A DNA stretch of 53,670 nucleotides, from NCBI GenBank assembly GCA_021646465.1, contig SOET01000031.1:1-53670 (forward strand), read 5' to 3'. The notes beneath the pieces were generated by a model, which saw only the letters and a list, made by a program, of their open reading frames with translations, was not told the origin of the DNA and made no database searches. Source of the stretch: Candidatus Kuenenia hertensis. GTDB lineage: Bacteria; Planctomycetota; Brocadiia; Brocadiales; Brocadiaceae. A program made the translations under genes and the position numbers. Positions 16,481 to 29,717 of the stretch are shown piece by piece (within the stretch, counting starts at the first letter, position 1; the number at the start of each line of letters is the position of its first letter).

Positions 16481-17470
16481 TTATTTTGGTATGAATTCTA
16501 CCAGAGAAAACCATTTCCTGGGATCGGTGAACCATCTGTTGATTTTCAGGCTGGCCCCTTCCGCCAGTGTTTCTATACTTTTTTGTGTAAACTTTCGGGA
16601 GACCTCTGTATGAATAGTTTCCCCCTTTTCCATTTCAATCGTTAAATCCAGATCTCTTATTTCCACGGAAACATCGCGGTTTGCCTTTAAGTGCATTTCT
16701 ATCTGTTCTTTTTCAGCATTTAAAAAGGCGATATGGTCAAAATGGTCAGGATTAAAATCGGCGTTAAGTTCACGGTTTACGACATTGAGACTGTTTTTGT
16801 TAAATTCACTCGTTACCCCCTGCGTGTCATTATAGGCGCGTTCAATCATTTCTTTTGCCTTCAGCATGTCAAAACCAAGCAGAAAACGGTCGTTTTTTTC
16901 CATTAAGGAAGATATGTTTTTCATGAAATGAATGCCTTCCTTTTCAGTTAAATTACCAATGGTGCTGCCTAAAAAAGTAAAAAATCTATTGTCCAACGTG
17001 GGAAGTTTTTCGAGGTGCTTTGTAAAATCAGCAACGATGCCCGTTACCTTCAGATCGGGGTATACCTCCAATAATTCTTCAGAGGCGTCAATTAATGCCG
17101 ATTCACTGACATCAACTGGCATATAGCGGATGTCCGAAAGATTTGCCTCATCGGTGGCGTTCAGCAGTATTTTTATCTTCCAGTTAGCACCCGACCCAAG
17201 TTCTATTATATCCCCCTTTTGAAATTCTTCCATAATTTCAGGTGCAGATTCCTTCAGGATCGACAATTCGGTACGTGTCAAATAATATTCCGGCAGTTTG
17301 CAGATCTTTTCAAACAGAGTGGAGCCATAGGCGTCGTAAAAATATTTGCTTGATATGTATTTCTGTGGTGCTGTTAATCCTTCCCGGATGTGTTCCTTCA
17401 AATCACATGAATACGTATCGATTGTGTAACTGATAATTTCTAATCGGTCAGGATAGGCGGTATAATGCAT
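16481..17470 (-). CDS. egtD: L-histidine N-alpha-methyltransferase (EgtD-like)
   Basis: This 329-residue protein matches the EgtD/DUF2260 methyltransferases: FYDAYGSTLFEKICKLPEYYLTRTE near residues 45-70, the SAM motif DIIELGSGANWK, and MPVDVSESAL. The known reaction is trimethylation of histidine to hercynine, the first step of ergothioneine synthesis. EgtB, EgtC or EgtE homologues are not present in the window, so the product may be hercynine alone, another methylated amino acid, or the partner genes may lie elsewhere. The gene is monocistronic here; a GC-rich hairpin repeat lies upstream of its start. Confidence 0.85.
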   Translation of the reverse strand: MHYTAYPDRLEIISYTIDTYSCDLKEHIREGLTAPQKYISSKYFYDAYGSTLFEKICKLPEYYLTRTELSILKESAPEIMEEFQKGDIIELGSGANWKIKILLNATDEANLSDIRYMPVDVSESALIDASEELLEVYPDLKVTGIVADFTKHLEKLPTLDNRFFTFLGSTIGNLTEKEGIHFMKNISSLMEKNDRFLLGFDMLKAKEMIERAYNDTQGVTSEFNKNSLNVVNRELNADFNPDHFDHIAFLNAEKEQIEMHLKANRDVSVEIRDLDLTIEMEKGETIHTEVSRKFTQKSIETLAEGASLKINRWFTDPRKWFSLVEFIPK

Positions 17471-17713: not shown

Positions 17714-20700
17714 TTAACGGCATGAAACAAAACGAACGGTATTCTTCGAATCGGTAATTATTTCTTTCATAAAAGATACGGTTTTTTCAATTTCTTCCAG
17801 GGTGTTTTCAATGCCCAGTGAAAACCGAATTGAACAGTGCGCTTCTTCTTCAGATAACCCCAATGCTAAAAGGGCATGCGATGGCTTCGGCGAACCGCTG
17901 CGGCATGCTGATCCTGAAGAAATGGAAACTCCTTTTTGATCCAGTGCAAGAACAATTGATTCTCCGCGCATTTTAGGTAATCTTATATTCAGGGTGTTCG
18001 GCAGCCTTTCCTGTGCGTGTCCGTTTAATCTGGCGTCAGGAATAATCTTCATTATGCCTTCTTCAAGGCTGTTACGCATTTCACCAACCTGATTCATTCG
18101 GAAAAGGTTTTGCAGCGCAACTTCCGCAGCCTTCCCGAATCCTGCTATTCCTGTTAAGTTCTCTGTTCCTGCGCGTAAATTGTTTTCCTGTTTTCCTCCG
18201 TGAATGAGCGCTTCAATTTCAATTCCCTTTCTGATATATAACGCCCCGATTCCTTTCGGGCCGTATATCTTGTGAGCAGAGAGAGACATCATATCTACTC
18301 CCAATGAGTCAATATTGACAGGCAATTTACCTACTCCCTGCACTCCATCGGTATGGAAGAGCACTCCTTTGTTCTTCGCAATTCGCGCGAGTTCCTTAAT
18401 CGGCTGCATGGTTCCTGTTTCATTATTTGCCGTCATTATACTGACAAGAAATGTCTGGCCGTTCATAGCATTGGCAAGCGCATCCGGATCAACTATCCCG
18501 TATCTATCAACATCTAAATAGGTAATATCGAAACCATACTTTTTCAACCATTCACATGTTGCGATTACTGAAGGATGTTCTACCTTCGTGGTAATAATAT
18601 GATTTTTCATGTTCCAGTGTGCGAATGCTGCACCTTTCAATGCTAAATTATTGGACTCAGAACCTCCTCCGGTAAAGAGAATGCGGCGTGCAGTGCAATT
18701 CAGCAACCGGGAAATGCTCCTGCGGGCGTTTTCCAATAAAAGGTGAGCGTCTTTTCCTTCCTTATATATACTGGAGGGATTACCGAAATATTCGCTCATG
18801 GTTTTTGTCATTACCTCATATACTTCCGGCGAAAGCGGTGTTGTCGCATTATGGTCAAGATATATGCGCCTTCCATTCATCTTGTACTCGCCTTTTGTCT
18901 CTGCCTTTTTCGCGTATGAACTGTTTTCTCCGGAATCTATTTTTACGGATTTTTTTTGACTGCATATCTTTTTTACGTCACATAAAAGAGTTTTGTACAC
19001 AGGGAAACCAGATATAGGGTCATAGCGATTGAGGTCTGTCAGTTCGTTAATATTACATTCCTGCCATGCCTTTGGGCCAACAGGGCCGCCGCCTCCCATG
19101 TTTGCATCAATAGTTCCCTTCATAATATCATCGGTAACAAGCGCCCTCATTGTTACGCCTCCCCGAAGTGTTTCCAAAGAGACAGAGTCGCCGTCGTTAA
19201 TGCCTCTCTCTTTAGCGTCATTCGTGTTGATGGTAACGGTAGGCTCCGGTCTTTTATTATATAATGCCGGTATGCCGTGATGCTGGGTACGAAAGTCTGT
19301 GGTAACTCTTGACCCGGAATTAAATATAAGGGGATATTGCTTTGCCAGCTCCGACTGAGAATAAGGCCCTTCCTGCGGTTCTGTATAAACAGGCAGTGGA
19401 TCGTATCCATATTCTTCCAGTACGGTGGAAGCAATTTCGAGTTTTCCTGTCGGCGTGTCAAATCCCGGTTTTCCATCGGGACGCAATAAGCCTTTCTCCC
19501 ATTTTTTATATTGCATCATTACTGTGGGTACCTGTACTGTTCCGCCTTTGGAACGAACATCTTCCAGCGAATATCCTGAATTTGCCAATACCTGCCGAAG
19601 AAGCTCTTCTTCATTTTGCGGGTACATATGCCCGTATCCCAGTCGTTGAGCAAGTTCTGCCAGGATAAAAAAATCGTTTCGTGCTTCCCCTACCGGATCG
19701 ACCACCTTTTCTCTTATGCGGAATACCGGGCCATATGTCATGTATGATTCAATCTCATACTGTGTAGTTCCCGGCAGCACAATATCGGCGTATGCCGAAT
19801 CTGCCGTGAGTTGCCTGTCAATGCAAACAAGAAAATCTAAAGCCTGTAATGATTCCTGCCAGATTTTTGGCTGCGGCCACGAAGTAGTAATGGAGGCGCC
19901 CAAAATGATAAGTGACTTTATGGAATAGGGAGAGCCGCGTAATACTGCATCAGGCAACGCCATAGGGTGAGATTCTTTCCGATAAAGATTATAAACGGGA
20001 AACCGGTCACGGCCTATAGTTTTATAAGGATTCGGATTGTCAAGATTGCTTGCTCTGTTTATGGGAAACGTATTTTCCCTCATGGTAAAACAACGGCCTC
20101 CGGGAACATCAAGCTGACCGGCAAGCGCCCACAACACGTGTGTTGCTCTGATTGCCTGCACGCCGCTGTCGCTGTATTCGAGACCGCTATACATCACGAA
20201 GGAAGCGCCATTTGCCGTTGCTATGCGGCGACCGAGATGCTTAATCTTTTCAGCGGAAATTCCGGTTATATTTTCTACCACTTCGGGTCTAAAATGTTGC
20301 ACATATGCTGAAAATTCCTCAAACCCTTGAGTCCAGTTAGTTACAAACGATTCATCATAAAGCTCTTCTTCAATAATCACATTACATAATCCAAGCGCCA
20401 ACGCCCCATCTGTTCCGGAACGAACAGGCATCCATTCTGCATCAGTAAGTTTCGCCGTCATGGTTCTGCGCGGGTCAATAACTATCACTTCCGCCCCGCG
20501 TTCTTTTGCTTTTATTATTCTTTTAAGGTCTAACGGGGGGCAATCGGTAGCGGGATTTGCACCCCAGACAACAATCAGTTCCGACCTCTCCAAATCAGAA
20601 AACATATTGATAAGCATGCCGCCCAGTGTTACATGGGGTGCAATCATTGCGAACGAAACATAACAGAGAGAACCAACCCCCATTGTGTTTGGTGAACCGA

Positions 20701-21127
20701 AGGGGAAAAGCACGCTTGACGCGGAAGAAACAGCAACTCCTTTTGGCTGAAAGATATCACACATGGCCAAATCAAAGCTGCCTCTGCCGGTATATATAGA
20801 TGTTGCCTCCGGACCGAACTGTTTTTTTATCTCATTCAGTTTTGTTGTCATAATATCATAGGCATCGTCCCATGAAATCCTTTCAAAGTTGTATGTTCCT
20901 TTTGGACCTTTTCTGCGCATGGGGAAAAGCAACCGGTCTTTGGAATAGACAATATCTGCAGAATGTTCTCCGAGAGTGCATAGTATTCCAAACTCGGAGC
21001 TTTCGTCAGGCTGTACGTCGATCATTTTTCCATTCTCGTCATAGCTAACAATAACCCAGCAACCTGCCGGGCAGATACCGCATAATGCGTTTTTTTTTAA
21101 GGTTGAAGTATTACTATTTATGATCAT
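17714..21127 (-). CDS. molybdopterin oxidoreductase fused to a NifS/IscS cysteine desulfurase
   Basis: One uninterrupted 1137-residue frame holds two enzymes. Residues 1-715 are a molybdopterin oxidoreductase of the formate dehydrogenase/NapA/PsrA superfamily: [4Fe-4S] cysteines C16, C19, C23 and C50, and C155 (VGSLCYVS) at the place of the Mo ligand, then VWGANPATDCPP and a C-terminal dinucleotide-binding domain. A polar linker (about 716-749) leads to a complete class V desulfurase (750-1137): YLDHNATTPLSPEV, HTDGVQG, PLP lysine K953 in SAHKIYG and catalytic C1075 in GSACRSGS. Known biology: IscS passes sulfur through FdhD to the Mo of formate dehydrogenases. A fused desulfurase could serve its own cofactor. 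An internal ATG (18880) preceded by AGGCGAG may also give a free desulfurase. GGAGG precedes the main start. Confidence 0.88.
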   Translation of the reverse strand: MIINSNTSTLKKNALCGICPAGCWVIVSYDENGKMIDVQPDESSEFGILCTLGEHSADIVYSKDRLLFPMRRKGPKGTYNFERISWDDAYDIMTTKLNEIKKQFGPEATSIYTGRGSFDLAMCDIFQPKGVAVSSASSVLFPFGSPNTMGVGSLCYVSFAMIAPHVTLGGMLINMFSDLERSELIVVWGANPATDCPPLDLKRIIKAKERGAEVIVIDPRRTMTAKLTDAEWMPVRSGTDGALALGLCNVIIEEELYDESFVTNWTQGFEEFSAYVQHFRPEVVENITGISAEKIKHLGRRIATANGASFVMYSGLEYSDSGVQAIRATHVLWALAGQLDVPGGRCFTMRENTFPINRASNLDNPNPYKTIGRDRFPVYNLYRKESHPMALPDAVLRGSPYSIKSLIILGASITTSWPQPKIWQESLQALDFLVCIDRQLTADSAYADIVLPGTTQYEIESYMTYGPVFRIREKVVDPVGEARNDFFILAELAQRLGYGHMYPQNEEELLRQVLANSGYSLEDVRSKGGTVQVPTVMMQYKKWEKGLLRPDGKPGFDTPTGKLEIASTVLEEYGYDPLPVYTEPQEGPYSQSELAKQYPLIFNSGSRVTTDFRTQHHGIPALYNKRPEPTVTINTNDAKERGINDGDSVSLETLRGGVTMRALVTDDIMKGTIDANMGGGGPVGPKAWQECNINELTDLNRYDPISGFPVYKTLLCDVKKICSQKKSVKIDSGENSSYAKKAETKGEYKMNGRRIYLDHNATTPLSPEVYEVMTKTMSEYFGNPSSIYKEGKDAHLLLENARRSISRLLNCTARRILFTGGGSESNNLALKGAAFAHWNMKNHIITTKVEHPSVIATCEWLKKYGFDITYLDVDRYGIVDPDALANAMNGQTFLVSIMTANNETGTMQPIKELARIAKNKGVLFHTDGVQGVGKLPVNIDSLGVDMMSLSAHKIYGPKGIGALYIRKGIEIEALIHGGKQENNLRAGTENLTGIAGFGKAAEVALQNLFRMNQVGEMRNSLEEGIMKIIPDARLNGHAQERLPNTLNIRLPKMRGESIVLALDQKGVSISSGSACRSGSPKPSHALLALGLSEEEAHCSIRFSLGIENTLEEIEKTVSFMKEIITDSKNTVRFVSCR

Positions 21128-23455: not shown

Positions 23456-26206
23456 TTAATTTAAATAAAAAAGACTAATAACCCTTTCCTTTCTGTTAAA
23501 TTTTACTTTAACACTGTTGCTGTCAAAAAACTTTATTTCTTCAATTTCATCCACCGTAATTTCCCCTAATTTATTTTGCAGGGTGTTTTTAATTTGATCT
23601 TCTATGTCACCTAATTTGACTTTTTCTGCAGGAGAAAGGTTCCGGGATGAAATAATTTCTTCAAGGATCAATCGATCGAAATCTTTCCCCTTTTTTGCCC
23701 TTTTTATAAATTCTAATTTCCGCTCTCCCATTTGCAGCGGCAACTGTTTTATGATATCCTGAACATCTTCGATCACGGTTTCCACGGTACTCAAAAATTC
23801 CAGTTCTCCAAAAAGGTCTTTTAGAGTAGTTTTTAAATAATCATAATGTGTGCAGGCAAGGCACATGTGAGAAATATTATTATTTTTAATAAATTCTTTT
23901 AGATTTACGTAAATTATGTCTCTTGCAATTTTATAAAATTCCTTTTGTTTTTCCTCAGTATCAAAGCTTTTTTTGTACAGCATTTCCGATAAAACAGCCA
24001 ATAATGGAGTCGATTTTACCAACACGCTGTATCCTGCATCTCTGATAATCTTTTCGTAAATACCACTTTTTATGGTACCTACCGTGCCTATGACGCCAAT
24101 CCTGGCGTCTTTTGGCAGATTTTTAATCTTTGCTATAGTTTTTTTAACAGGGCCCACAAACTGTATATACGGAAAACGGGTTCGTAATTTTTTATGATTA
24201 ACTAAGGTATCAACCGTATTGCAGGCAAAACAGACAATGATGTCTTTAGAAATAATTCCCAACCAGATAAATAAAACCTTAATAAAATACGGGGACTTGT
24301 CAATAAACCTAAAGAAAAACTCACTTGATTTATTCATAATTCTGCAACGTTCGTTTATTTCATGAACCGCCTGGAACGTGATTTCGTTTATTTCCTCTTT
24401 CGATTTTTGTCCAAAAGGAAAATTGGCTTTGTCCGTAAAAAGCAGAAGTTTTATATTCCCTTCGGGCAGCATTCTGTTAAGTTTTTCCGTTGTGATAATA
24501 CCTCCCTGCCCGGAATCAAATATTCCTATTATTATAGGTTTTTTTTCACTTTTTTTCCCAATTTGTATATTTTTTGCCTCAATGGTACTGATAATTCTTT
24601 TAATAGCAACCACATCACCTGCAATTGATAAATCAACAGAGTATTTTTCCACCAGCTTTTTAATCACATTGTTTTTTAAAACGTTTTCGACTCTCGAAAC
24701 AATATCTTCAAAGACGTATTCCCTCTCCCATTGGTCGTTTTGAGAATTTTGTATTTTTTCCAGGTAAGAGGCAATAATGCCGCCGGATTTTACAATGGAA
24801 TCCCTGCCAACGATTTTTCCGTTTTTTACAAGAACATGATAACCTTCCTGTGAAATTCCTGCGTTTGCAGCAGAAACAACATAACGCGCCTGAATACTTT
24901 CTGCATTATGGGCACGTATCTGGTTCTCTATAGCAGCCAACAAAAGAATGTCTGCCTTCTCTTTCAATAATTGGTATGGTTCAGCATAAACATTTGCCTC
25001 CTGGAATCCATAAATTCTTCCATGTACTTCTTTATATTTAATTAACGCTTCAATGTTTAATCCCTGATAATTATAAATTGCTACTACTTTCTTTTCTATC
25101 TTGTCATACTCGCTTATAGCAATTACTTTTGTTCCTTTTAAAGAAAAGAATTGTGCCGCACTTAACCCGATACCGCCGAATCCATTAATGACAACTGTCT
25201 TGCCATCTAAAAAGTTCTTTCTTTCTCTTCCAATCCGTACTTTTAAATAATCTTTTGGGTTTTCGTTATACCAAACCAGAAAATTCGTAATTTCTACCGC
25301 TGCAAATGCCGTGGCTTCTCCCCGGCCTGCTAATCCACCATATGTTTTAAATGTAACAGATCCTAACTCGGGAACGCTTCGTTTTATGTCCCCATTGTTT
25401 CTTATTTCCTTCGCAAATGCAGCCGCTGTTTTTATATAAGGCAATCCCGCTGTCCATACAATTTCAGCATCGCGAATGCTTTTCAATTTTTCTAAAAGCT
25501 CTTTTTCTCCGATTTTTTCCATTTCAGTCAATGCTCTGAAATGACCGTCTGCCATAGAATCCATCATTGTGCCGTCAGTTCCGACGTCCGGCCCCGGAGA
25601 ATAGGCATCGTGCCCCATAATCCCTTCCTTGGTAAGTGAATAACCTATTTCCCGTGCTAATCGTTTTTTCTCCTCATTTGTCAGTTCTATGGATTTAAGA
25701 AATATTTCTCCATTGATATATTCCGGCTCGCCAAGGAAAATTCCACACATTCCTCCCCCGAGAGGTAAAGAATACAATGCAAGTTTTAAAGTGGTTACAA
25801 TGGAAAGGGCTTCGATTTCTTCAGATATCCATTCGAAACAGAATTCTCTGATTTCGTCAAGAGAAGCTTTCTGATCTCGCAATCTGTCAAAATGTTCAAA
25901 AAAGTCATCTCCAAGAATATGCGGAAGGATAAATAGCATTCCTCCTTTGGGAGGACCGAGAGCGAAATTGTGAAAAACAACTGTTATAAGCAGAATTAAT
26001 TTTCTACCACCATCAGTGTAAAATTCCAAAGGCATTTTCCAGACATTTTGCGGAATTTTAAGAATGGGAAATAATTTATGACAATTCTTATAAAAAACAG
26101 GGTCTTTCTCCCGGATGACTTCAATCGCCTCGTCAAGTCGTTTGTGAACATTTTTTAACAGAGGGTTTTTGATTTTTCTGCTTCTGATCAAATGGGATGA
26201 GTTCAT
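23456..26206 (-). CDS. glutamate-dehydrogenase-like domain fused to a glutamate racemase-like domain
   Basis: A single 916-residue frame joins two amino-acid enzymes. Residues 1-545 resemble Glu/Leu/Phe/Val dehydrogenases: K87 in GPPKGGM, K141, D207 in SPGPDVGTDG and the NAD(P) motif GFGGIG (342-347). The catalytic lysine of PxGGGKGG is absent; the segment reads PLGGGMCGI (M153, C154). Residues about 557-825 match MurI: FDSGQGG, CFACNT (C662) and CLACTHYDYL (C785), so both racemase cysteines are present. About 90 extra charged residues follow. The racemase half could work, making D-glutamate or another D-amino acid; the dehydrogenase half may be inactive, regulatory or changed in reaction. 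It heads an apparent operon with fetA-fetB. Confidence 0.85.
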   Translation of the reverse strand: MNSSHLIRSRKIKNPLLKNVHKRLDEAIEVIREKDPVFYKNCHKLFPILKIPQNVWKMPLEFYTDGGRKLILLITVVFHNFALGPPKGGMLFILPHILGDDFFEHFDRLRDQKASLDEIREFCFEWISEEIEALSIVTTLKLALYSLPLGGGMCGIFLGEPEYINGEIFLKSIELTNEEKKRLAREIGYSLTKEGIMGHDAYSPGPDVGTDGTMMDSMADGHFRALTEMEKIGEKELLEKLKSIRDAEIVWTAGLPYIKTAAAFAKEIRNNGDIKRSVPELGSVTFKTYGGLAGRGEATAFAAVEITNFLVWYNENPKDYLKVRIGRERKNFLDGKTVVINGFGGIGLSAAQFFSLKGTKVIAISEYDKIEKKVVAIYNYQGLNIEALIKYKEVHGRIYGFQEANVYAEPYQLLKEKADILLLAAIENQIRAHNAESIQARYVVSAANAGISQEGYHVLVKNGKIVGRDSIVKSGGIIASYLEKIQNSQNDQWEREYVFEDIVSRVENVLKNNVIKKLVEKYSVDLSIAGDVVAIKRIISTIEAKNIQIGKKSEKKPIIIGIFDSGQGGIITTEKLNRMLPEGNIKLLLFTDKANFPFGQKSKEEINEITFQAVHEINERCRIMNKSSEFFFRFIDKSPYFIKVLFIWLGIISKDIIVCFACNTVDTLVNHKKLRTRFPYIQFVGPVKKTIAKIKNLPKDARIGVIGTVGTIKSGIYEKIIRDAGYSVLVKSTPLLAVLSEMLYKKSFDTEEKQKEFYKIARDIIYVNLKEFIKNNNISHMCLACTHYDYLKTTLKDLFGELEFLSTVETVIEDVQDIIKQLPLQMGERKLEFIKRAKKGKDFDRLILEEIISSRNLSPAEKVKLGDIEDQIKNTLQNKLGEITVDEIEEIKFFDSNSVKVKFNRKERVISLFYLN

Positions 26207-26639: not shown

Positions 26640-27152
26640 CTATCTTGCCACTTTATAGGCAATAATATTTACCAGTTCAATCTGGTACGTTTTGTTCAGA
26701 TCTTGTATTCCAATCGCGGCTCGGGTGGGGCATGATTTCACAAACTCTTTGTATACGGCATTCATCTCACCCCAGTAATCCATATTCTTAAGAAAAATAA
26801 TCATGTTCACAATTCTATCAAGTTTTGAACCCATACTTTCCAATGCAGTTTTCACGTTTGAAAAAACCAATTTGAATTGTTCTTTTGGTACGAGACTTGG
26901 CACTTCTCCCGTTGAGTCGACAGGGATAAAACCTCCGCAACGTATTTTAATCGCCCGCACTTTTGCAAGCCTTACCATGTCCTCTTCAAAATAATCGCTC
27001 ATCAGCCCGATTTGCCGTTCCGGCTGTTTCCCGACATTTTTTAATGAATCCTTTAGTATCAGGTCTAATAATTTATCTCTTTCTTCAAACGACAACTGCT
27101 GTGCTTTATCAACAGACATCGCATCCAAATCCGCTAAAGTTAAATTTGCCAT
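26640..27152 (-). CDS. RidA/YjgF-family protein
   Basis: This 170-residue protein has the Rid fold core: FSNVKTALESMGSKLDRIVNMIIFL, MNAVYKEFVKSCPTRAAIGIQDL and a C-terminal IELVNIIAYK. The arginine of PTRAAI is the one that binds the imine substrate carboxylate in active RidA enzymes, so 2-aminoacrylate or a related imine deaminase activity is possible. An unusual N-terminal extension of about 50 residues precedes the domain. It lies downstream of the glutamate-synthase-like gene in the same direction with about 200 bases between them; it may belong to the sigma-54 operon. Confidence 0.8.
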   Translation of the reverse strand: MANLTLADLDAMSVDKAQQLSFEERDKLLDLILKDSLKNVGKQPERQIGLMSDYFEEDMVRLAKVRAIKIRCGGFIPVDSTGEVPSLVPKEQFKLVFSNVKTALESMGSKLDRIVNMIIFLKNMDYWGEMNAVYKEFVKSCPTRAAIGIQDLNKTYQIELVNIIAYKVAR

Positions 27153-27355
27153 TACTTTCCTCTATTCATTTCGTTAATAATGTAAAAAATATTCCCGTAA
27201 GGTACAACCCACTGTTGCACCTCTTTTGCCTGATTATAGAAAGAGGGGGGTAGAGGGTGGAATATTTATGCATATTTGCGCCACCTTCTCATCCCCTCTT
27301 TTCCGGAGGAAGCTCTTGTGAAAATTCCTCTTATAATGCGAAGAAACAAAGGGAA

Positions 27356-28933
27356 TCATGCATCCAGAACCCTTTCTGCCTGTTCTTTGTCATAATCCAT
27401 GATATAGGTGATTCCTGTGGCATCTGTTGCTTCTCTCGTTAAAGTGAAAATATCATCCCTTGTGATGTCCATAATCGACCATCTCCTCGACCCGGCCATT
27501 AGCTGTCTCAGCCCCGTTGCCAATCGCTGATAATAAGAATACATTCCAATGGCGCCGATGGGAATATTGCCAAATTGATCTTTTACCTTTTGTGAGTAAT
27601 AGAAGATTTGATCAGTAGAAGAGCCATATTCCGAAACAGGCTTTGGAACCTTTCCTTCGGCAACCGCCTTGCCGATTGTGTTGCCAACCATGGCAGCGCA
27701 AATGGTAGACCGGGACATTCCAACCGCCTTAATAAATGGAGATAAAAGAGCAAAAGATTTATAAATATGATCTTCTGAAACGAGCCCTCCTGCCAGGACA
27801 ATATCCGGCACATATTCTCCGCGATCCGCAAGTTTTTTACAATATTGATACGTTAGTGCGGCAATATAGACGGTTGGTAATCCCCATTCATTCATCATAC
27901 GCCAGGGGCTCATGCCCGTTCCGCCGCCGGAACCATCGATCGTCAAAACGTCTATCCTCGCCCATGAGGCAAACTTAATTGCACGCGCTAAATCAGAAGG
28001 ACGGTAAGATCCCGTTTTCAAAAAGATATATTTAGCGCCAGCATCTCTTAAATGTTGTACATTATCCATGAAACCATCAAATGCACGCGATACTGCGTCG
28101 GGTATTGCACAAATTCTGGTATGCCTTTCAAATCCCTTAATTGTACCGTTCTGAAATGCCTGCTGCGTAATGGGATCTTCAGGGTCGGGGATAACAACAT
28201 AGCCAAGTTTTTTTAACCGGATGGCTTTTTCTAAGGAGGTCAATTTAACCTCGCCGCCAATATTTTTAGCGCCCTGGCCCCATTTCAATTCGAGGGCGTC
28301 CGCTCCTAATTTTTCCAGACAGTACGGTAATACACCAAGACGCCAGTCTTCCTGGTTTGCCTGAATTGCAATAAAACCATAACCATCTGTTTGATAATCT
28401 TTAAAAGACTTGAAACGCCTTATTAATTCCGGGCTGTTAGTGACTTTGCCGTCCGTTATGGTTGAATTGTCATCCATCGCAGCCACATTTTCTCCAAGAA
28501 CAATGCCTGAACCACAAATAGCCGCACCTGTACCTAAAGATTCGAAGTGGGTTTGGGCAATTTTTGTCGAACCAAGTCCGGTACAAATTATAGGAACCCG
28601 CAATTTAAGGCCACCGTCTCTCCCCATTTTCGTTTCGATGCTGGCGTTGGTAAACAGGTCATATTCCCTTTGGTGGTGACCGGTGATTGAACCCGTTATG
28701 TTGAAATGTGAAAAATCAACAGGAAAATCCTTTTGTGCCCCGGCAGTAATCTCGCCAAAAGGTACCGGATAAATTGCTTCAGGCCCCCTGTAGGCGGATT
28801 TACCAATTTCACAATATCCGGGGCATCCATCCAGGCACGTAACACACATACCACTTTGGGGCAATACTTCATCACCTAAACGGGTCCATGTGCCGGTAGC
28901 CCTTGATCTGTTTGGGATAAACAAGGATCCCAT
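27356..28933 (-). CDS. FMN-binding glutamate synthase-like domain protein
   Basis: This 525-residue protein matches the central plus FMN domain of the glutamate synthase large subunit: LKWGQGAKNIGGEVKL, VLTIDGSGGGTGMSPWRMMNEWGLPT, LAGGLVSEDHIYKSFAL and AVGMSRSTICAAMVGN. No glutamine amidotransferase domain is present, as in archaeal-type or stand-alone GOGAT-like proteins. A cysteine cluster near the N-terminus (CVTCLDGCPGYC, about residues 33-44) could bind a small Fe-S centre. It would bind FMN and transfer electrons and perhaps ammonia, but the substrate cannot be fixed from sequence. GGAGT precedes the start; it follows the diiron oxidase gene by 73 bases. Confidence 0.85.
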   Translation of the reverse strand: MGSLFIPNRSRATGTWTRLGDEVLPQSGMCVTCLDGCPGYCEIGKSAYRGPEAIYPVPFGEITAGAQKDFPVDFSHFNITGSITGHHQREYDLFTNASIETKMGRDGGLKLRVPIICTGLGSTKIAQTHFESLGTGAAICGSGIVLGENVAAMDDNSTITDGKVTNSPELIRRFKSFKDYQTDGYGFIAIQANQEDWRLGVLPYCLEKLGADALELKWGQGAKNIGGEVKLTSLEKAIRLKKLGYVVIPDPEDPITQQAFQNGTIKGFERHTRICAIPDAVSRAFDGFMDNVQHLRDAGAKYIFLKTGSYRPSDLARAIKFASWARIDVLTIDGSGGGTGMSPWRMMNEWGLPTVYIAALTYQYCKKLADRGEYVPDIVLAGGLVSEDHIYKSFALLSPFIKAVGMSRSTICAAMVGNTIGKAVAEGKVPKPVSEYGSSTDQIFYYSQKVKDQFGNIPIGAIGMYSYYQRLATGLRQLMAGSRRWSIMDITRDDIFTLTREATDATGITYIMDYDKEQAERVLDA

Positions 28934-29006
28934 AAAATACTCCTTTCCTTGTTGTTAACAAATTGAACCGCTAGAATACGTCTAGCGCGCCAACAGTTTT
29001 TTTTGA

Positions 29007-29717
29007 TTAAAATTTGGTTGCCTTCTCTAATCCATCCCACAAAACAGTTCTTGCATCAAGGAAATCAAAAGCGCCCTTTCTTATTTTTCTCTGTTGCTCT
29101 TCGGTTTTAGAGCAAAATGCCAAAGAGTGCCTTATGTTTGCGGCATGCTCAACATCGAGTTCAATATGAGCAGAAAAGAAGAGTACGGCATCATCATTTA
29201 AGCCGGCACGTTTACAGCCTTCACGAATCGGCTGATACATTGTGGGCACTATAAATTCGGTTCCTGGTCCCAATGCACCTAGCGCTTCAACGTAATCCAT
29301 ATAATGAATGTTTAGGTATTTTTCGACAAACAGTTTTGTCTCCGGCAGCATTACTATGCTGTCCAATGCCGACTGATCGGTATTAACTCCAGCAGCTTTT
29401 AAAAATCTGCGGAAAATAGCAGGGTGGGTGAGCTCTGCATCCATACCTCTTTGCTCTTCAGTTCTGCCGCCGTATTCTTCAAATAAATTCTTAATTAAAG
29501 GAGCCCTGCCCGCCTCATCAGGACAAATTGCAACCGCTCCGGCCAAATAGCGCGAAAAATGCCTTGAAAAACAATAATATTGCTCCGCATATAATTTTAC
29601 GGCCTTCATATCTGCTTTTGCTCTGAATTTTTGCAGATATGTGTGATTATTAACCGCCGGATGTTTTAAAATATCTGATTCTAATTTGTCAAAAAATTCT
29701 CCCGTTGACATAGCCAT
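29007..29717 (-). CDS. TenA/PqqC-like heme-oxygenase-fold diiron oxidase
   Basis: This 236-residue all-helical protein fits the HDO (heme-oxygenase-like diiron oxidase) group related to CADD, UndA and PqqC. Probable metal ligands are E80 or E81 (NLFEEYGG), H98 (LTHPAIF), E154 (GPGTEF), and H184-x3-D188-x2-H191 in SAHIELDVEHA. Enzymes of this fold perform O2-dependent or radical oxidations of small carboxylates or amino acids. In an anaerobe it could use another oxidant or act as a low-oxygen enzyme; I do not assign a substrate. It is the first gene after a strong sigma-54 promoter and the NtrC-type regulator gene. Confidence 0.8.
   Translation of the reverse strand: MAMSTGEFFDKLESDILKHPAVNNHTYLQKFRAKADMKAVKLYAEQYYCFSRHFSRYLAGAVAICPDEAGRAPLIKNLFEEYGGRTEEQRGMDAELTHPAIFRRFLKAAGVNTDQSALDSIVMLPETKLFVEKYLNIHYMDYVEALGALGPGTEFIVPTMYQPIREGCKRAGLNDDAVLFFSAHIELDVEHAANIRHSLAFCSKTEEQQRKIRKGAFDFLDARTVLWDGLEKATKF

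Follow-up and report, generated by a model that had tools for sequence, protein, structure and literature searches.

Within the window analysed here, a stretch of DNA of 53,670 nucleotides, a single frame of 916 codons on the minus strand joins a glutamate dehydrogenase (GDH)-like half to a MurI-like racemase. This fusion is a real and conserved domain architecture, apparently undescribed so far, built from two known families; no description of a GDH-racemase fusion was found in the literature searched. The reading that we favour, with reasonable though limited confidence, is that of a live MurI-type racemase with a pseudo-dehydrogenase in front of it, which acts in cis as a regulatory or oligomerisation module. 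That the racemase is active and on which substrate, that the dehydrogenase is inactive, and that the protein forms oligomers, binds ligands and gates its racemase are all points that we infer from sequence comparison and a predicted structure. The peptidoglycan of the group to which this planctomycete, an anammox relative, belongs was long disputed; D-glutamate has since been shown to be among its constituents (PMC4432595, Kuenenia). If confirmed, the fusion would represent a new way to control the supply of D-glutamate, the first committed D-amino acid of peptidoglycan.

Results and Discussion

Domain architecture and predicted structure of the fusion

An initial annotation, made from the letters of the window, had described one frame with a GDH-like and a MurI-like domain. 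This is confirmed by Pfam and NCBIfam matches (Table 1): ELFV_dehydrog is recognised at residues 330-542 (E=7.6e-36), ELFV_dehydrog_N at residues 128-220 (E=6.2e-9) and glutamate racemase at residues 657-817 (E=6.3e-26). In the PDB, the first half matches glutamate dehydrogenases by sequence, and the second half glutamate racemases. The residues singled out at that time were each found at the number given, namely K87 (context GPPKGG), K141 (TTLKLA), M153-C154 (GGGMCG), D207 (PGPDVGT), the nucleotide motif GFGGIG, C662 (ACNT) and C785 (ACTH).

Table 1. Coordinates of the fusion gene, its parts, its neighbours and the MurI2 loci. Positions are those of the window unless a locus is named.
Feature	Position	Strand	Basis or remark
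GDH-like/racemase fusion gene	23456..26206	minus	916 aa, ATG start at 26206; full-length homologues found
GDH domain I-like part, residues 15-225	25532..26164	minus	PF02812 and structure model
K87 codon (K89 equivalent)	25946..25948	minus	present in all six long forms; short forms have K, Q or H
K141 codon (K113 equivalent)	25784..25786	minus	retained in 6/6 long forms, absent from short forms
M153 codon, catalytic-lysine position	25748..25750	minus	followed by C154, invariant among long forms
D207 codon (D165 equivalent)	25586..25588	minus	
Rossmann NAD-binding domain and C-terminal GDH helix, residues 290-545	24572..25339	minus	PF00208; GFGGIG at 342-347
MurI-like racemase domain, residues 557-820	23747..24538	minus	TIGR00067; PDB glutamate racemase matches
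C662 codon, first racemase cysteine (CNT)	24221..24223	minus	
C785 codon, second racemase cysteine (CTH)	23852..23854	minus	
C-terminal extension, residues 821-916	23459..23746	minus	alignable in part to short forms
RidA-family protein, 170 aa	26640..27152	minus	PF01042; conserved synteny and co-inheritance
Glutamate-synthase-like protein, 525 aa	27356..28933	minus	PF01645
CADD-like haem-oxygenase-fold protein, 236 aa	29007..29717	minus	PF14518; TIGR04305 under cut-off
MurI2	L049:1383-2189 (G000:C35), L050:8261-9061, L051:8344-9150, L042:7678-8493, L052:2655-3461, L079:1172-1762		

The protein was modelled from an alignment of 35 rows (mean pLDDT 83.6, pTM 0.60), which solved the poor NAD domain (pLDDT 52) of a model built from 12 rows. 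When the model is compared with solved GDHs, its residues 14-549 align over 409 residues at an rmsd of 2.4 A, with Z 40.5 to plant GDH2, the fold-search list being filled by matches of the GDH half. According to this model, the GDH half is an intact two-domain GDH fold with one catalytic residue replaced. As in NAD-dependent glutamate dehydrogenases (PF02812 and PF00208), the substrate lysines K87 and K141, the catalytic D207, S480 and a nucleotide motif are retained. Unlike these enzymes, the fusion has Met or Ile in place of the lysine, an extra segment at about residues 226-289 and an attached racemase, and it scores far under the GDH equivalog cut-off (124 vs 750 bits).

The catalytic lysine of the dehydrogenase half

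M153 stands where clostridial GDH has its catalytic lysine, K125. In nine GDH sequences of related genomes the motif reads GG[AS]KG[GA], and its lysine lies 12 residues after the lysine of T-x-K; the spacing between K141 and M153 is the same (TxK + 12 = GG[AS]KG). An early MAFFT alignment matched GGAKGG to residues 150-152 and 165-167, opening a gap of 12 residues, as if the lysine were merely misaligned. The spacing of 12 and a split-row alignment rule this out. In the latter, M153 falls gap-free onto the GDH lysine, the GDH rows having been divided by hand directly after the motif, so that the spacing is the independent argument. The claim that the lysine of PxGGGKGG is replaced is thus borne out.

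The lysine is gone in all 20 carriers of the fusion, which occur in a long form, as in the window, and a short form described below: Met or Ile stands in its place in six of six long forms, and Ser or Cys in 14 of 14 short forms. Conservation of GGGMCG, proposed as a check in the initial annotation, holds for five of the six long forms, the sixth having GGGICG; it does not extend to the short forms, all 14 of which read GGA[S/C][N/S/C][A/S] and have K141 replaced as well. K87, K141, D207, S480, C662 and C785 do not vary among the six long forms; the nucleotide motif is GFDNIG in one of them.

In GDHs the role of the lysine is to prime water for attack on the imine, and that of the aspartate is to relay protons (PMC7326016). 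It is safe to regard the dehydrogenase reaction of the GDH half as strongly impaired, judging by its sequence. It may be a fully dead dehydrogenase, but it need not be, since in leucine dehydrogenase lysine-80 mutants retain about 1.5% activity, which 1 M ammonia raises to 20% (PMC12018205).

Among the long forms dN/dS lies mostly at 0.08-0.18, in the racemase as in the GDH-N and NAD parts; the few values above this stem from G025 and G027, which are nearly identical to each other. This argues that the GDH half is kept for some purpose.

Long and short forms in the order

A profile search with the N-domain found the fusion in 20 of the 62 genomes of the order. Six of these carry the long form, whose identity to the window protein is 82 and 80% within the same genus and 69-71% in three others of the same family; the remaining 14, all of one sister family, carry the short form. 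A scan that sampled 392 genomes of the phylum did not find the fusion outside the order; the only matches there were weak (E about 1e-9) and lay in frames as long as ordinary GDHs (454-526 aa). It had been pointed out that close relatives with separate genes and a normal lysine would speak for a recent accidental fusion or an assembly error. What we found instead is a fusion kept in 20 genomes, with the lysine gone in every one. Its conservation excludes chance or assembly error, the same layout being present in six long-form genomes, one of them a single contig.

In the short forms the GDH N-domain, independently recognised by PF02812 in Pfam (E=1.7e-9 and 2.7e-6), runs straight into the racemase with no Rossmann domain between them. 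Of the 14 short forms, four have K at the K87 position and ten have Q or H; in the racemase DTG replaces DSG, and PFG is missing. Their linker matches long-form residues of about 233-287 and 521-542, the latter being the terminal GDH helix, weakly (profile, E=0.007 each). This is the pattern expected if the short forms are long forms that lost the NAD domain by internal deletion, a derivation that may be put forward on modest statistics. The racemase domains of long and short forms group together in a tree with moderate support (89/91); the tree of the GDH half has long branches and singles out no donor lineage. Taken as a series, complete GDH, lysine-less GDH with its NAD domain and lysine-less domain I alone would form a natural record of an enzyme becoming a non-catalytic module.

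The racemase half and the supply of D-glutamate

The racemase motifs DSG, PFG, CNT and CTH are complete in all six long forms. Both cysteines, noted before in the window protein, are indeed there and are kept in all 19 readable fusion forms, six long and 13 short, the fourteenth short form (G050) having a broken frame in its assembly. In these motifs and in its database matches the racemase half resembles MurI (TIGR00067). It differs from MurI by an insert of about 36 residues ahead of the CNT motif, by a C-terminal extension, by its place behind a GDH fold and by its scores, which lie under the cut-offs (91.3 vs 146.65 bits for TIGR00067 and 29.2 vs 31 for PF01177). The substrate of the racemase could differ from glutamate, and that of the short forms may differ as well; glutamate is less sure because of the low MurI score and because the short forms have DTG and lack PFG.

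All six genomes with the long form also encode a divergent stand-alone MurI, here called MurI2 (Table 1), in which SNT and STH replace CNT and CTH. In the four genomes whose whole protein was scanned MurI2 passes TIGR00067 (148.7-152.6 vs 146.65 bits). This is a warning for annotation: MurI2 passes the racemase cut-off without both cysteines, whereas the fusion, which has the two, falls under it.

The window's genus (g1, including one single-contig genome) is without canonical MurI, and the fusion is the only MurI-type protein there with both cysteines. MurD is present in the genus. Of class-IV transaminases the window's genome has two, which exceed the PabC and IlvE cut-offs and not that for D-amino-acid transaminase; G001 has one further protein of this class. 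On these grounds the D-glutamate of the peptidoglycan in this genus probably comes mainly from the fusion. Canonical MurI is also kept in three long-form genomes.

The view of the fusion as the sole possible source of D-glutamate is weakened by DapF, which is found in nearly all these genomes. DapF is described as racemising glutamate in one report on Chlamydia (PMC5885031). Family f2 (G033, G037, G040, G042 and others) and the genomes G041 and G046 have MurD and neither a MurI-type protein nor the fusion, DapF being a candidate there. Another route to D-glutamate is thus possible.

Neighbouring genes

In G000, G002, G022 and G027 the genes for the CADD-like, glutamate-synthase-like and RidA proteins lie ahead of the fusion and in its orientation, with one extra gene between in G027; in G001 about 90 kb separate the trio from the fusion. 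Of the genomes of the window's family, only the six with the fusion have the CADD-like gene, the glutamate-synthase-like gene (88-96% identical), a close RidA and MurI2, which therefore look co-inherited with the fusion. The CADD-like and glutamate-synthase-like genes occur together in fusion-free families too, and families f2 and f5 have neighbouring genes of this kind and no fusion. A link between trio and fusion is suggestive, as judged by gene order and distribution.

The conservation of the trio itself (window 26640-29717, minus strand) extends to other families of the order, those lacking the fusion included. In G022 (contig C1) there are two CADD-like copies about 11 kb apart (L041:14392-15105 and L042:5909-6622) with 100% protein identity, one adjoining the fusion cluster and the other MurI2, which points to a recent duplication or gene conversion.

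The FetAB-type transporter, which the initial annotation had put forward as a possible exporter of the product, did not hold up as a partner of the fusion, as its linkage is not conserved. The FetAB-like pair is near the fusion in two of the six long-form genomes, G000 and, with two genes between, G001, a count that includes the short contigs of G025 and G027. Its scores lie far under the FetA and FetB cut-offs (152.2 vs 292 and 131.9 vs 410 bits).

Possible roles of the dehydrogenase-like half

In the reading that we favour, the N-terminal half would derive from a complete glutamate dehydrogenase which, with the loss of the lysine that acts on both water and substrate, could no longer carry out its reaction efficiently. 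In the long form, binding of glutamate or 2-oxoglutarate and of NAD(H) has most likely been retained, as the carboxylate-binding lysines and the NAD domain are still there, and closure of the two GDH domains would gate the attached racemase. In the short form of the sister family only the domain-I scaffold would remain. The racemase would be an amino-acid racemase of the MurI type, most likely for glutamate. The earlier suggestion that the first domain may sense NAD(H) and an amino acid and act as a gate for the racemase would fit the ligand residues retained in the long form and the purifying selection; sensing of NAD cannot be the role shared by all forms, since the sister family lost the whole NAD domain. 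A known parallel is GdhA of Thermus thermophilus, a catalytically inactive GDH subunit that serves as a regulator (PMC9570180; PDB 3aoe). Both would be regulatory GDH folds after loss of activity, a role which for the fusion we infer. GdhA differs in being a separate subunit that regulates another GDH, whereas the fusion has its racemase in cis.

A more specific version, which we consider rather unlikely, has the GDH-like half reading 2-oxoglutarate or glutamate together with NAD(H) and switching D-glutamate production accordingly, possibly with MurI2 as a pseudo-racemase partner, so that the nitrogen and redox state would gate cell-wall synthesis. If true, a single protein pair would combine two dead enzymes, a dehydrogenase and a racemase, with one live racemase.

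Domain I of GDHs is a substrate-binding and oligomerisation domain and drives hexamer assembly. The GDH part might accordingly sense nothing and only build the oligomer that keeps the racemase in the right state. All 14 short forms fit such a role, as they keep domain I and yet have lost the NAD domain, K141 and mostly K87. The conservation of K87, K141, D207, S480 and the NAD domain in the long forms, under selection as strong as that on the racemase, exceeds what a scaffold needs, and we give this explanation only an outside chance.

RidA proteins are a family of imine deaminases. Their presence next to the fusion, or co-inherited with it, in the long-form genomes together with the glutamate-synthase-like gene would suit an altered chemistry, in which the GDH part with Met for Lys moves hydride between glutamate and NAD without imine hydrolysis and so yields or uses up 2-iminoglutarate, which these two proteins would handle. 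The other active-site residues are retained and C154 is invariant, as such a reaction would have it. The same neighbours, however, occur without the fusion in f2 and f5 and lie far from it in G001, one long form has the nucleotide motif GFDNIG, and we know of no precedent for the reaction; we hold it to be very unlikely.

Least probable of all is that both halves are ordinary enzymes, a weak GDH channelling 2-oxoglutarate through L-glutamate to D-glutamate: the ammonium-rich habitats of anammox-type bacteria might compensate for the missing lysine as ammonia does in the leucine dehydrogenase mutants cited above, but that rescue took 1 M ammonia, an ordinary GDH with GGAKGG is also encoded elsewhere in the window's genome, and the short forms, which have no NAD domain, cannot use NAD.

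Other genes of the window

Two further genes on the minus strand of the window deserve mention. A frame of 1137 aa (17714-21127) joins a molybdopterin oxidoreductase of the formate-dehydrogenase-alpha/PhsA-like kind (residues of about 10-715) to a cysteine desulfurase of the NifS/IscS type (residues 755-1129), possibly a sulfur donor fused to its client. The gene at 16481-17470 encodes the histidine N-alpha-methyltransferase EgtD (363 vs a cut-off of 290.9 bits), which points to a possible pathway of the ergothioneine type in this planctomycete.
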